From Akkermansia muciniphila (GTDB lineage: Bacteria > Verrucomicrobiota > Verrucomicrobiia > Verrucomicrobiales > Akkermansiaceae): a stretch of DNA of 64,000 nt. Location: the NCBI RefSeq assembly GCF_900184965.1, contig NZ_FXYA01000162.1, forward strand, positions 1-64,000, in the 5' to 3' direction. The translations under genes were made by a program, and so were the position numbers. A model generated the notes under the pieces. It saw nothing but the letters and a program-made list of their open reading frames with translations. It was not told the origin of the DNA and did not search any database. Shown in pieces: positions 42,508 through 46,127 of the stretch (within the stretch, counting starts at the first letter, position 1; every line of letters starts with the position of its first letter).

Positions 42508-42903
42508 ATGTCCAAAAAGAAGGAGGCAAAGACAAATGCCATGCGTCTGCTGGATGCGCTGCATATCCCGTACAGGCATTATTCCTATGAATGCCGCGAG
42601 TTTGTGGATGCGCGGCATACGGCGGAAGCACTGAATCTGGCGGAGGAGAAGATGTACAAGACGCTGGTAACGGAGGGTGCTCCACGGCAGTATTACGTGT
42701 TCGTGATCCCCATAGGCGCGGAGCTTTCCTTGAAAAAGGCTGCCCGAACCGTGGGAGAGAAGGCTCTTTCCATGCTTCCGGTGAAGGATATTGCTGCCGT
42801 GACGGGGTATGTGCGCGGCGGCTGCACGGCTTTGGGGATGAAAAGGAAATACCCTGCTGTAATTGATGCCAGCGCGGAGGCCCTGCCGTGTGACCAACCA
42901 TAA
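42508..42903 (+). pseudogene. ybaK: ybaK 5' part, interrupted by a mobile element
   Basis: From the ATG at 42508 (MSKKKEAKTNAMRLLDAL) this encodes about 127 residues of a YbaK/EbsC Cys-tRNA(Pro) deacylase: E-K-M-Y-K-T-L near 48, G-Y-V-R-G-G-C-T-A-L-G-M-K-R near 104, and I-D-A-S-A-E near 121. It then runs into the element at 42889 and stops after P-C-D-Q-P at 42903. The missing end, starting E-M-V-V-S-G-G, is found beyond the element at 46014-46127. Joining 42888 to 46014 gives a full-length frame that aligns residue for residue with E. coli YbaK around the junction. The editing enzyme is presumably inactive here. Confidence 0.88.
42885..42888. repeat. Target-site duplication, left copy (GCCG)
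   Basis: GCCG directly abuts the left terminal repeat; the same four bases abut the right one at 46010-46013. One copy restores the ybaK frame. Confidence 0.65.
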
Positions 42904-42905
42904 AT
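42889..42905 (+). repeat. Left terminal inverted repeat
   Basis: TGTGACCAACCATAAAT matches the inverted right end (45993-46009) at 16 of 17 positions. If the 104-bp stretch between two copies of CCATAAATGC (42898-42907 and 43002-43011) is skipped, similarity to the right end continues for roughly 54 bp in total. Confidence 0.8.
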
Positions 42906-42907
42906 GC

Positions 42908-42952
42908 TTGAAAAGGGTTGAATTTGCTTGAAGAAGCTTGAAAGCGGTTGAA
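42908..42952 (+). repeat. Five TTGAA iterons at exact 10-bp spacing
   Basis: TTGAA starts at 42908, 42918, 42928, 42938 and 42948. The bases between vary (AAGGG, TTTGC, GAAGC, AGCGG), so the phase rather than the whole unit is conserved. One helical turn per unit suggests a protein-binding array just inside the left end. The right end has no such array. Confidence 0.7.
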
Positions 42953-43012
42953 AATACGTGCGTTTCAGGGGGAAATGGAAGGGTGGCGCAAGAAGTTACG
43001 CCCATAAATGCC

Positions 43013-43065
43013 CGTAAGGGTCAATTTTGAAAAATCGTAAGGGTCATTTGTCCCATGTGAGACAC
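43013..43065. repeat. Left subterminal repeats and palindrome
   Basis: CGTAAGGGTCA occurs at 43013-43023 and 43036-43046, 12 bp apart, followed directly by the imperfect palindrome TGTCCCATGTGAGACAC (43049-43065). The same arrangement, inverted, is at the right end. Confidence 0.75.
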
Positions 43066-43128
43066 TCCCGCCAGAGGTCCGCGCGTGTCTCGCAGAAGCC
43101 CGGCGAACCCTCCGCGGGCTGGCCGCGG

Positions 43129-43690
43129 TCAGGGGATGGGAACGCCCAGGCGGTCCGCGGCAATGCGGACATTATCCGGGGAAAGGTCGATGCCGTGGGC
43201 GATGTGTCCCAGGTCGCGGGCGGCAACAAGAGTCGTCCCGCTCCCCATGAAAGGGTCGAGGACGCGGGAACCGGGAGGAAGAACCGTCATCAGGTGGCGC
43301 ATGAGAGGAACAGGCTTGCCTGTGAGGTGCATCTTGTCGGACGGCTTGAGATAATGCCGGAAAACGCCAGCCGGAAACACGCGCGGGCGTTCCTGCTCCT
43401 TGCCGATGCTGCCGTGCGTGGCGATAAGGATAAACTCCGACTGGTTGCGGAACATGCCCTGGTGTGGGCGGCAAGCCTCTGTCTTGTCCCAGGTGACGAC
43501 GGCGCGCCATGTCCACCCCGCCACCTGTAAGGCGTCCGAGGTCAAGGGCAGTTGCCGCCAGTCTGAAAAGACCATCAGCCAGCCGCCGTGCCGGGTTATC
43601 CGCAAAGCCTCCTGCATCCACATGACAGACCACAAAAAATGGGTGCGCTGGTCCCTGGTGTCGTTATCAAAAGAAAGATACCTTGAGGAA
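43129..43690 (-). pseudogene. 5'-truncated phage-type DNA adenine/cytosine-N methyltransferase
   Basis: The first available start gives 168 residues (to 43635), but the homologous frame continues upstream to about 43690 with R-Y-L-S-F-D-N-D-T-R-D-Q-R. The protein has the phage methylase pattern D-W-R-Q-L-P-L-T-S-D-A-L, W-D-K-T-E, F-R-N-Q-S-E and the SAM-binding motif L-D-P-F-M-G-S-G-T-T. The catalytic D-P-P-Y motif, which in this class lies N-terminal to that region, is missing, so the enzyme should be inactive. The break coincides with the start of the oppositely oriented head-gene fragment, as expected for a deletion junction. Confidence 0.75.
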
Positions 43691-43916
43691 GACAGGTATT
43701 TCCGGGCGGGGGAAAAACCCGGCGGCGAAGGAACTGCTCGCCTCCCTGCCTGTCAATCCCGCATTCCGCCAGACCTACACGGCCCAGGACAACAAGGGGG
43801 ACGGGGCAAAAACCGGGAAAGCCCTGCTTGCCCAGCATGCCGCCATCACCGACCCGGCGGAACGCCTCGCCTTTTTCCGTGAACACGAAAAAGAGCTGAT
43901 TGCCGCCCGCGGCTAA
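43683..43916 (+). pseudogene. 3' fragment of a small phage head-region protein
   Basis: About 70 residues ending I-T-D-P-A-E-R-L-A-F-F-R-E-H-E-K-E-L, a pattern I associate with the small protein encoded just before major capsid genes in some phages. The only start is a TTG at 43683, in sequence shared with the end of the truncated methylase on the other strand, so this is probably the tail of a longer gene cut by the same junction. It lies 40 bp before the capsid-like start. The identification is tentative. Confidence 0.4.
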
Positions 43917-43956
43917 TCCCTCCCGCCAATCATCACCACACACTATATATAATAAG

Positions 43957-45912
43957 ATGCCAACAACAATTGATACCAAGTTAAACGACGATATTATCGT
44001 GTCCAAGGGATTGGAGGCGTTCAAGAATTCCCTGGCCCCCCTGGGGAAATTCTCCACCGACTACTCCAAAGAAGCCGTCAACAAAGGGGCAAGTCTGAAA
44101 GTCCCCTTAATTGGTTCTTTGACCGCTTCCGATGAAGAAAACGCCTACGAAAAGGAGACCGGAACCCTGGGGGCCGTGGAGGTCGTTTTGAATGGCTACG
44201 CCAAGGCTACCGTAGGTCTGACCGACCGCCAGTTCATGGAATCTTCCGCCGCCAGCCTGAACATTTTTGCCGGGCAAATGGGGGCCGCCGTCGCGACAAA
44301 AGTTATTGAGGGAGTGTTCGCCAAAATCACCAAGGCGAACTATCCCGCCACGCTGGCGGCGACCGCGGGCATGACCATGATGCAGCTGCTGACCCTGGCT
44401 CGCGCCAAATTCGGAGAATTGAAAGTACCTCTGACTAACCGCGTCTATTTCCCCTCGCCTTCCGCTTATACGGCCCTGGCCGAGGATTCCTCCGTTCAGG
44501 TGGCGTCCGCGCTGGCCTACGGCGGGACGGAGTACGTCCGCGACGGCGTCATTCCCCGCCTGCTGGGGTTTGATTTGGTGGAATCAACCGTTCTTCCGGC
44601 CAGTTCCGCCGCTCCCAACGGCTTTATCGTCCATCCCGCCGCGCTGGCCGTGACGGAGGATTTTTTCCATATCCCGGCGCACCAGTTGCTGTGGCGGTTG
44701 TTCCTCGTCCGGTACAACGCCAATTTGCCGCTGGACATCATTTCCGTGACGCAGGCCCTGGCGGACGGCAACCAGCTGGATGCCGTAGGAGGCAACGCCG
44801 GGCTGGCGGAAATCTACACCTTTACCACCACCGGAGCGTATTTTGAGCATTATCTCCGTACCCTGCGCGACAAGTCCCTCTTGCGGTCCATCATTGACGC
44901 CTCCGCCAAGTCCATGACGCAGGCTTTTGACAACCCGGAGGACGTAGCGGCCCTCCTGGACGCCGTGGAAACTCATATTTTCCAGATAAGGGAGCGGTCC
45001 AGGAGCCGCGCGGACGGCCCAGGGCTGGCCGCCCTCGTCCGGGAGGCCGTCACCAGCTTTGAACAATTCATTGCCAGCAAGGGGCGCATTCAGGGGCTTT
45101 CCACGGGTTTTGACCAGTTGGACCGCAAGAGCAACGGCCTCAAGCCGGGGGACATGTTCGTGATTGCGGCCCGCCCATCTATGGGGAAAACGTCTTTTTT
45201 GCTTAATATCATGGAGCATGTCGCGCTCAATGAGAAGAAGCCGACCCTGCTTTTTTCCTGCGAAATGCCCGCCGTCCAGATTGTGGAGCGTCTTCTTTTC
45301 GCCCGTTCCGGCGTCCGCCGCGGGGAGATTGTCCGGCGAGGCACGCTGACCCAATTAGAGATGCAGCATTTCAAGAGGGCCGTGGAGGACGTGGGGGCGG
45401 CCCAGCTGGTCATTGACGATACCGCGGCCATTTCCATCAACGAGCTACGGGCCAAGGCGCGCCGCGTCATGCGCGACCTGGGAGGACTGGCCGTCATTGG
45501 CGTGGACTACCTGCAACTCATGCGGTCCACGTCCAGACAGGCGGCCAACAGCCGGGAACGGGAAGTGGCGGAAATATCCGCGGGCCTGAAAGCCCTGGCT
45601 AAGGAACTCAAGGTTCCCGTCGTCGTGCTGGCCCAGCTGAACCGGGGACCGGAGACGCGCGCCGGGAAAGAAGCCGGGATTCCCCGCATGTCCGATTTGA
45701 GGGAATCCGGCTCCATCGAGCAGGACGCGGACATGATAGGCCTTCTTTACCGTTCCGACTACTACGCCGAGGACGAGGACCAGCGGCAACAACTGGCCGG
45801 ACAAGCTAATCTCCACCTGGCTAAAAACCGCAACGGCCCCACCGGGGACATTCCGCTCCGCTTTGAAGCGGAACTCATGCGTTTCTCCACCCGCGAGCCG
45901 GAAAAAAAATAG
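43957..45912 (+). CDS. In-frame chimera: phage major capsid-like protein joined to DnaB-type replicative helicase
   Basis: A 651-residue open frame from the ATG at 43957 (MPTTIDTKLNDDIIVS). Residues 1 to about 232 look like a phage coat protein (S-T-D-Y-S, L-T-D-R-Q-F-M-E-S, V-Y-F-P-S-P-S-A-Y, ending near G-F-I-V-H-P-A-A-L-A-V). From about residue 234, E-D-F-F-H-I-P-A-H-Q-L-L-W is the DnaB N-terminal domain, lacking its first ~40 residues. V-G-G-N-A-G-L-A-E-I-Y-T-F follows, then the RecA-like motor with Walker A R-P-S-M-G-K411-T, Walker B V-I-G-V-D-Y-L-Q-L and K-N-R-N-G-P-T-G-D. The helicase motifs look intact; the coat domain is truncated. The join is seamless. A functional product is possible but unproven; a deletion between two phage genes is the simplest origin. 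Confidence 0.8.
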   Translation: MPTTIDTKLNDDIIVSKGLEAFKNSLAPLGKFSTDYSKEAVNKGASLKVPLIGSLTASDEENAYEKETGTLGAVEVVLNGYAKATVGLTDRQFMESSAASLNIFAGQMGAAVATKVIEGVFAKITKANYPATLAATAGMTMMQLLTLARAKFGELKVPLTNRVYFPSPSAYTALAEDSSVQVASALAYGGTEYVRDGVIPRLLGFDLVESTVLPASSAAPNGFIVHPAALAVTEDFFHIPAHQLLWRLFLVRYNANLPLDIISVTQALADGNQLDAVGGNAGLAEIYTFTTTGAYFEHYLRTLRDKSLLRSIIDASAKSMTQAFDNPEDVAALLDAVETHIFQIRERSRSRADGPGLAALVREAVTSFEQFIASKGRIQGLSTGFDQLDRKSNGLKPGDMFVIAARPSMGKTSFLLNIMEHVALNEKKPTLLFSCEMPAVQIVERLLFARSGVRRGEIVRRGTLTQLEMQHFKRAVEDVGAAQLVIDDTAAISINELRAKARRVMRDLGGLAVIGVDYLQLMRSTSRQAANSREREVAEISAGLKALAKELKVPVVVLAQLNRGPETRAGKEAGIPRMSDLRESGSIEQDADMIGLLYRSDYYAEDEDQRQQLAGQANLHLAKNRNGPTGDIPLRFEAELMRFSTREPEKK

Positions 45913-45990
45913 TGTCCCATGTGGGACACTTGACCCTTTCTCTTTCCCCCCTCCTGACCCTTACGATTATTTAAGGATTCACCCTTACCG
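45912..45990. repeat. Right subterminal repeats and perfect palindrome
   Basis: GTGTCCCATGTGGGACAC (45912-45929) is an 8+2+8 palindrome starting at the last base of the chimera stop codon. Moving outward come TGACCCTT (45931), TGACCCTTACG (45955-45965) and TCACCCTTACCG (45979-45990), the inverted counterparts of the left-end CGTAAGGGTCA repeats. Confidence 0.75.
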
Positions 45991-45992
45991 TG

Positions 45993-46009
45993 ATTTATGG
46001 TTGGTCAAA
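45993..46009 (-). repeat. Right terminal inverted repeat
   Basis: ATTTATGGTTGGTCAAA is the inverted copy of the left end with one mismatch at the second base from the tip. Confidence 0.8.
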
Positions 46010-46127
46010 GCCGGAAATGGTGGTGAGCGGCGGACGCCTGGGGTGCCAGATTGAGTTGAATCCTGTGGATTTATGCCGCGCGGCGGAGGGTATTTTTGCG
46101 GATGTAGCGGATATTCCCGTTTCATGA
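46010..46127 (+). pseudogene. ybaK: ybaK 3' part beyond the element
   Basis: After the second GCCG, the frame P-E-M-V-V-S-G-G-R-L-G-C-Q-I-E-L-N-P-V-D-L continues to a TGA at 46127. This is the conserved C-terminal part of YbaK (compare the V-S-G-G-K-R-G and I-E-L motifs). It lacks its own start and is separated from the 5' part by the 3.1-kb element. Confidence 0.85.

Follow-up and report, generated by a model that had tools for sequence, protein, structure and literature searches.

The window analysed here, a 64,000-nt stretch of an Akkermansia muciniphila genome assembled in 215 contigs, contains a 3,121-bp element that interrupts a host gene carrying an aminoacyl-tRNA editing domain. The features of the element are as follows, with the basis of each assignment in brackets:

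42885..42888, no strand: left copy of the target site duplication GCCG (sequence; empty site in G004)
42889..46009, plus strand: whole element, 3,121 bp, read as an internally deleted Mu-like phage with both ends (ends and relatives)
42889..42905, plus strand: left terminal inverted repeat TGTGACCAACCATAAAT (repeat comparison)
42908..42952, plus strand: array of five TTGAA at 10-bp pitch (sequence, shuffles, left-end comparison)
42913..42920, plus strand: core of putative transposase site L1, AAGGGTTG, overlapping array units 1-2 (alignment with R1 and other ends)
42979..42986, plus strand: weaker AAGGGTSA-like site at element nt 91 (score 8.0, under the 9.85 threshold; 13.4 in the closest relative)
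43002..43023, plus strand: putative transposase site L2, CCATAAATGCCCGTAAGGGTCA, containing the second CCATAAATGC (score 24.7 against a 95% shuffle threshold of 9.85)
43039..43046, plus strand: core of putative transposase site L3 (score 15.7)
43048..43066, no strand: left near-palindrome TGTCCCATGTGAGACA (sequence)
43129..43635, minus strand: N6/N4 DNA methylase fragment, 168-aa ORF (family match, relatives)
43683..43916, plus strand: ORF keeping the C-terminal part of the gene that precedes the major head protein gene, holding the first deletion junction at ~43712-43714 (relatives)
43957..45909, plus strand: in-frame fusion of major head protein (phrog_283) and DnaB-like helicase, holding the second deletion junction at ~44636-44651 (family matches, relatives)
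45911..45930, no strand: right palindrome AGTGTCCCATGTGGGACACT (sequence)
45931..45938, minus strand: core of putative transposase site R3 (nt 72 from the right end)
45955..45962, minus strand: core of putative transposase site R2 (nt 48 from the right end)
45979..45986, minus strand: core of putative transposase site R1 (nt 24 from the right end)
45993..46009, minus strand: right terminal inverted repeat, TTTGACCAACCATAAAT read inward, 16/17 identical to the left one (repeat comparison)
46010..46013, no strand: right copy of the target site duplication GCCG (sequence)

When the two flanks are joined with one GCCG and aligned to the intact gene in G004, no gap occurs at the junction (370/475 identities, with a single 2-base gap away from the junction). 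Comparison with relatives placed two internal deletions in the element, at ~nt 825 and ~nt 1750: its left 826 bp are 97% identical to phage contig IMGVR 2835279802 (V2835) and its last 1,372 bp are 95.7% identical to contig 3300027542 (V33000). The element is related to a 28-kb Mu-like transposable phage of Akkermansia, from which it differs by internal deletions. The two deletions left the predicted head protein/DnaB-like fusion ORF at 43957-45909. Separately, the palindromes near the two ends are of two types, TGTCCCATGTGGGACA and GTGACACGTGTCAC, and which end carries which type differs between phages (window, L106 and L004 ends); repressor, terminator or recombination sites are possible roles for them.

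Full copies of the phage measure 28,367 bp in G017 and 28,730 bp in G054, end to end. The genes of G017 run outward from a centre holding regulator-like ORFs, with transposase, MuB-like, minor-head-like and methylase genes leftward and terminase, portal, head and DnaB genes rightward (names of genes lacking a family match were assigned by position). The transposase has no Pfam or PHROG match at 0.001, and none among 50,697 phage records at E 1e-5. Its predicted structure (mean pLDDT 64) models as a MuA/TnsB fold, the top Foldseek match being the Mu transpososome (4fcy, E 3e-11) and the VIA-align Z scores reaching 18.2 to a TnsB and 16.5 to MuA. The adjoining MuB-like gene matches the phrog_296 DNA transposition protein (E 9e-21), and Mu-type head and packaging genes are present (Portal_Mu, E 7.9e-78; Terminase_6N/6C). 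The transposase was assessed in full-length relatives, the window copy having no transposase gene.

Exact 4-bp target duplications flank 10/10 two-ended copies tested, at nine sites (GCCG, ACGG, TCAC, TCAG, ATGG, GTTA, GTGA, GCGG and GCGC), the GCGG duplication being common to two short copies at what is seemingly one shared site. This scripted test covered 10 copies and left out the short copies of G049 and G057:C7 (51411). Two G000 copies lie in pieces on different contigs (C164/C152 and C151/C32); the pieces were matched through their flanks, and the duplications of these two copies are therefore no independent proof. As a separate observation, G000:C152 (L129 1-424), in the same genome, is a further deletion copy, in which the transposase 3’ end is joined to the DnaB 3’ end and which adjoins a normal right end with the duplication GTTA. 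With a DDE transposase of modelled MuA/TnsB fold, a MuB-like partner, Mu-type head and packaging genes, and insertion at many sites with short duplications, the family belongs to the Mu-like transposable phages in the wide sense. Phage Mu makes a 5-bp target duplication and is 37 kb long, as against 4 bp in 10/10 copies and 28 kb here; on the duplication length, we do not file the family as Mu itself. Unlike in Mu, the left-half genes run towards the left end and a DnaB-like helicase lies beside the right end.

Shorter members of the family comprise deletion copies in G037 (3,751 and 2,684 bp) and copies of 243-252 bp in G049, G017:C2, G057:C7 (two) and G060. The shortest have inverted repeats, no transposase gene and 4-bp duplications in 3/3 tested, as MITEs do, with the difference that an insertion sequence is not their parent, but a transposable phage. 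In each, a left end joins a right end close to a TGTCCC...GGGACA palindrome, which the window element has in both ends, and we infer that they probably arose by deletion between the similar palindromes inside the two ends. In two Akkermansia species (L137 and L111), such a copy occupies apparently the same site, with identical 12-bp flanks and five versus four units of the repeat described below.

Just inside the left terminus of the window element, TTGAA occurs exactly at 42908, 42918, 42928, 42938 and 42948, as the original prediction had it. No other three phased TTGAA (at most 1 mismatch) exist anywhere in the window, for which 100 dinucleotide-preserving shuffles gave an expectation of 0.00. 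The longest run of identical pentamers at period 10 in the left 180 bp is 5, far beyond chance: 3,000 shuffles of the same 180 bp, scored at any period from 6 to 21, reached a maximum of 3 (33/3,000) and never 4. A tandem-repeat program renders the array merely as 1.9 copies of a 20-bp unit. Copies of CCATAAATGC at 42898 and 43002, separated by 104 bp, bound the stretch, and the right end of the window element has no array; both points had been anticipated.

We compared the array across 18 left ends (13, a second G000 copy and four more; 16 distinct over 170 bp), drawn from full phages, 3-kb deletions, MITE-like copies and remnants. Matches confined to the inner part or the right end did not count as left ends, no right end lies within the 13 kb examined for the G057:C45 copy, and IMG contig 2843315725, 100% identical to G017 in nearly all genes compared and missing its left terminus, was left out. 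All 18 left ends carry the array, with 4-5 units at 10-bp pitch and 72 of the 85 units exact TTGAA. The spacing departs from 10 bp in a single 9-bp step, at the last unit of G057:C45 (scored inexact; counted at 9-bp spacing, the total becomes 73/85), and two arrays are decayed (2/4 units exact in G061, 4/5 in G059). The array starts at nt 20 from the terminus in 17/18 left ends and at nt 19 in one. At the right, 12/12 ends have no array, two of them holding a single TTGAA at nt 67 inside R3. The array is real, conserved, one-sided and helically phased, and the earlier impression that its phase is selected agrees with this conservation. The idea that it had been inserted into one terminal repeat does not hold as a recent event in the window copy: the array is an ancestral part of the family's left end.

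A four-unit pattern of the array gave 13 matches in 5/76 Akkermansia genomes, all within nine left ends of the family, and a reversed control pattern gave zero matches in the 76. Among 387 genomes of the phylum, it matched one genome outside the genus, in a different repeat. Of the left-end parts compared, the TTGAA cores changed least when the 16 distinct ends were placed on a tree (0.32 changes per site, as compared with 0.94 for the inverted repeat, 1.20 for L2, 1.31 for L3, 1.40 for the array linkers and 2.19 for the rest of the spacer; permutation p = 0.0013 for cores against linkers, and 0 of 20,000 permutations for cores against the rest of the spacer). Slippage homogenisation could lower core changes, and the variation of the unit number between 4 and 5 is what slippage would give. 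However, the linkers differ between units yet are largely kept per unit position, which makes wholesale homogenisation unlikely. Together with the low rate of core change and the confinement of the four-unit pattern to left ends of this family, this makes it extremely improbable, in our estimate, that chance or slippage fixed the array as a short tandem repeat without function.

The array lies among putative transposase sites. In 10/12 right ends, AAGGGTSA (at most 1 mismatch) occurs three times, at nt 24, 48 and 68-72, about every 24 bp; the remaining two right ends are MITE-like, one keeping the third site alone and the other the second and third. These sites are putatively bound by the transposase of modelled MuA/TnsB fold. 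A 24-bp site model was built from 24 distinct sites in 9 of the 12 right ends, leaving out G000:C152 (a duplicate) and two decayed MITE-like right ends (shuffle 95% threshold, 9.85). With this model, the L2 or L3 position scores above threshold in 15/18 left ends (under it in G057:C45, the G060 remnant and G061), and the terminal L1 in 5/18, the window copy being below. The second CCATAAATGC is the outer half of L2, which resembles the right terminal site R1. Only 3/18 left ends have it, those of the window element, of V2835 as the closest relative and of the G059 remnant, the other 15 reading AATAAAT, CATAATT or GAAAATA at this position, so the full 10-bp identity is no feature of the family. 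The array interior scores between -3.2 and -12.9 in 18/18 left ends. Its units are therefore not degenerate AAGGGTSA copies but another motif, which fills the gap between the terminal site L1 and the inner sites L2-L3, in the left end only.

The distance from L1 to L2, assigned manually and with a degenerate L2 core in some ends, is 102-105 bp in eight of the 16 distinct ends and 91-93 bp in the other eight, with none at 94-101 bp. The two length classes are one helical turn apart and rest on approximately four events, three of which are the loss of one repeat unit, as slippage alone gives in steps of 10; the fourth (V33000 type, -2 and -9 bp) falls outside the array.

The best explanation of these findings is that the array acts in cis, within the left end of a Mu-like transposable phage. 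It survives in the 3-kb deletion copies and in the 243-252-bp copies, which hold little beyond the ends, though its conservation in the shortest copies may be inheritance. A link with transposition is the better-supported half of the suggestion that it could bind a replication or transposition protein; for a replication-protein (iteron) role we found no support, and no Rep initiator gene was detected among the 10 G017 phage proteins scanned (of 31 ORFs compared).

Several binding proteins can be considered. The full phage has a small CII-like helix-turn-helix ORF (Phage_CII, 26.6 bits against a cut-off of 21.3), and lambda CII reads direct repeats ~10 bp apart, so that the array might bind a transcription regulator, CII-like or a repressor, controlling phage promoters. 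We regard this as very unlikely: the left-half genes point to the left end, which puts the array downstream of the methylase rather than at an obvious promoter, the regulator-like ORFs lie mid-phage, and the array is kept in copies without genes.

The location and conservation of the array would apply equally to an enhancer-like site for a second DNA-binding domain of the transposase, like the Mu internal activation sequence but placed in the left end. The N-terminal domain of MuA does have a second recognition motif. Nevertheless, the model of the Akkermansia transposase is weak outside its core, with the first 20 residues at pLDDT <50, and the G054 transposase differs in type from those of the phages sharing its left-end type, though the array is nearly the same in both left-end types. 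On this evidence an enhancer role seems improbable.

We favour, at about even confidence, a folding role: the array would be a platform on which bound protein brings L1 and L2 together by folding the left end. Each TTGAA would hold one of several subunits of a single DNA-binding protein, all of them on one side of the helix; the bound protein would fold or wrap the L1-L2 spacer, and the folded spacer would let the transposase at L1 pair with that at L2 in the transpososome. One candidate binder is a host protein of the HU/IHF kind, a family with three above-cut-off matches in the genome; others are the transposase itself, by way of a second domain that binds DNA, and some further protein of the phage. 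What favours a folding platform is that the array has the same L1-L2 place as HU in Mu and IHF in type I-F CRISPR-associated transposons (CASTs).

The Mu left end (attL: L1, spacer, L2, L3, with HU acting between L1 and L2) shares with the Akkermansia phage a MuA-fold transposase, a MuB-like partner, a Mu-type portal and a long L1-L2 gap on the left only, the spacer from L1 to L2 in Mu being 74 bp in the portion of the source available (PMC3820752); in the Akkermansia phage, the gap is filled by the TTGAA array. Type I-F CASTs, as represented by VchCAST, likewise have three transposase sites per end, an unevenly spaced left end and an architectural site in the L1-L2 gap, according to the excerpts available (PMC10201428, PMC13370975). 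There, IHF puts a bend into the left end, between L1 and L2, and activity rises and falls with the spacing of the sites at a period of ~10 bp, which the authors liken to HU in Mu (PMC10201428, in part); a 2026 preprint describes, in its available part, a 180-degree IHF bend that places LE2 (PMC13370975). The Akkermansia left end differs from these in belonging to a phage and in having several phased short motifs instead of one IHF site, with no conserved IHF consensus in the gap. It thus has the left-only, L1-L2 location of a Mu/CAST-type bend site, with an L1 that is weak by the site model (5/18).

We considered two simpler routes to bending. Intrinsic curvature from phased A-tracts was discarded: in a wedge model, the predicted curvature of the 18 left ends was not above that of shuffles (z -1.1 to +1.0). 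As the predicted curvature is ordinary, bending would need a protein. The gap as a conserved IHF site was likewise discarded, because an IHF consensus (at most 1 mismatch) clear of the L1 and L2 sites is absent in 16/18 left ends and present solely in two related ones, G057:C45 and the G060 remnant. One-mismatch matches do occur over L1 in 12/18 left ends (nt 13-25), the V33000 type having none there, and over the L2 site in 8/18. We therefore do not file the array as an IHF site.

Nor is the array general among transposable phages. The left ends of Mu, D3112, B3 and hankyphage p00 have no comparable array, with best scores of 5, 3, 4 and 4, as compared with 5-10 for seven Akkermansia left ends in the same scoring, the lowest being the decayed G061; the Mu left end has a weak period-10 run of three, matched by 14/200 shuffles. 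In a scan of distant relatives that was blind to the position of their ends, and so no test of the array, L119, L120, L133, L157 and L159 had no identical pentamer repeated at least four times at period 9-11, and L158 had only a GC-rich 11-bp run.

The main rival to the folding platform is a packaging (pac) site, in which a small-terminase ring would read one motif per turn, the cut would fall in host DNA just outside the left end, and headful packaging would proceed rightward. We consider this possible though doubtful. The array occurs at the left end only, 20-64 bp from the terminus, and the pac site of Mu lies similarly close to its own terminus. The full phage has a large terminase, and the ORF just upstream would by its position be the small subunit, although this putative small terminase has no Pfam or PHROG match. 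In the Bacteroides hankyphage, packaging begins at the left end and takes in 29-31 bp of host DNA (PMC12135933, in part), and SPP1-like pac DNA has been likened, in the part of the source available, to AT runs interspersed with double G/C and suited to wrapping the small terminase (PMC4737164), which the array resembles. Pac sites (SPP1, SF6) and the hankyphage have in common with it repeats or AT runs near the packaging start, as candidates for terminase-ring wrapping (PMC4737164 and PMC12135933, in part). Two things set the array apart. The same partial source reports that the SF6 small terminase binds pac without sequence specificity (PMC4737164), whereas the TTGAA cores are strongly conserved. 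The array is also retained in the 243-252-bp copies, though transposition needs no packaging; inheritance may account for this.

The mosaic phage G054 bears on both readings. Its left end is of the V33000 type, as the putative small-terminase ORF also tends to be (85% identity to V33000, 82% to G000, 68-71% to G017 and V2835), and not of the type of its transposase and MuB-like genes (84-90% to V2835, 59-68% to V33000), so variants of the array do not follow the transposase. Linkage explains this equally well: the methylase beside the left end is also V33000/G000-like, and 13 of the 19 G054 genes compared are nearest V33000 or G000 (the G000 column mixing pieces of several contigs). Transposase, MuB-like gene, p18066 and head protein are nearest V2835, and HTH10342 and DnaB nearest G017. 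The mosaic favours neither folding nor packaging strongly, and packaging slightly.

The array may also serve both functions. In a more elaborate and distinctly speculative version, to which we attach a low probability, it would be a platform, in phase with the helix, on which a phage protein or a phage-specialised HU-like protein assembles cooperatively into a filament or ring, folding the left end for synapsis and maybe doubling as the packaging start, with a switch from transposition to packaging; the MITE-like copies, in which all these sites are retained, would then be mobilised in trans, perhaps marking chromosomal loci for packaging. Such a dual platform, if true, would be a new kind of transposon-end organ.

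The family adds a clade of transposable phages to Akkermansia, a much-studied gut commensal. In the parts available of the literature on Akkermansia transposable prophages, Mu-like phages, prophages (among the matches listed) and MITEs with a Mu-like prophage, this family is not described; one paper reports, in its available portion, a single prophage for A. muciniphila ATCC BAA-835 and proteins resembling those of Mu for a different verrucomicrobial genome, and two inducible prophages of 37-39 kb are given for Akkermansia YL44 (PMC8008629, in part). The natural series from the 28-kb phage through 2.7-3.8-kb deletions to ~250-bp copies shows which sequences are kept in cis. It also offers a testable case of asymmetric transposon-end folding, since the L1-L2 gap, where HU acts in Mu and IHF in CASTs, contains in this family a phased array of countable units, which could be inserted, deleted or rotated by half a turn of the helix.

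Three further observations concern the transposase. A distant relative (36%) is found in Verrucomicrobia bacterium LW23 (L131, L132), where 59.5 kb common to two contigs at 100%, with two identical transposase genes, is probably an assembly duplication; with 100% identity over this length, the insertions are indistinguishable. In G054 (L127, L128, L169), the transposase and MuB-like genes lie side by side and agree in type, while most other genes compared are of another type, as if the transposition module had been exchanged as a pair. Finally, the second catalytic aspartate of MuA-type enzymes lies in a DNG motif, and the transposase at L105 13102-14739 has the motif LEGGVWKS, with a conserved glutamate at the presumed position of this aspartate, which suggests that its catalytic triad may be unusual.
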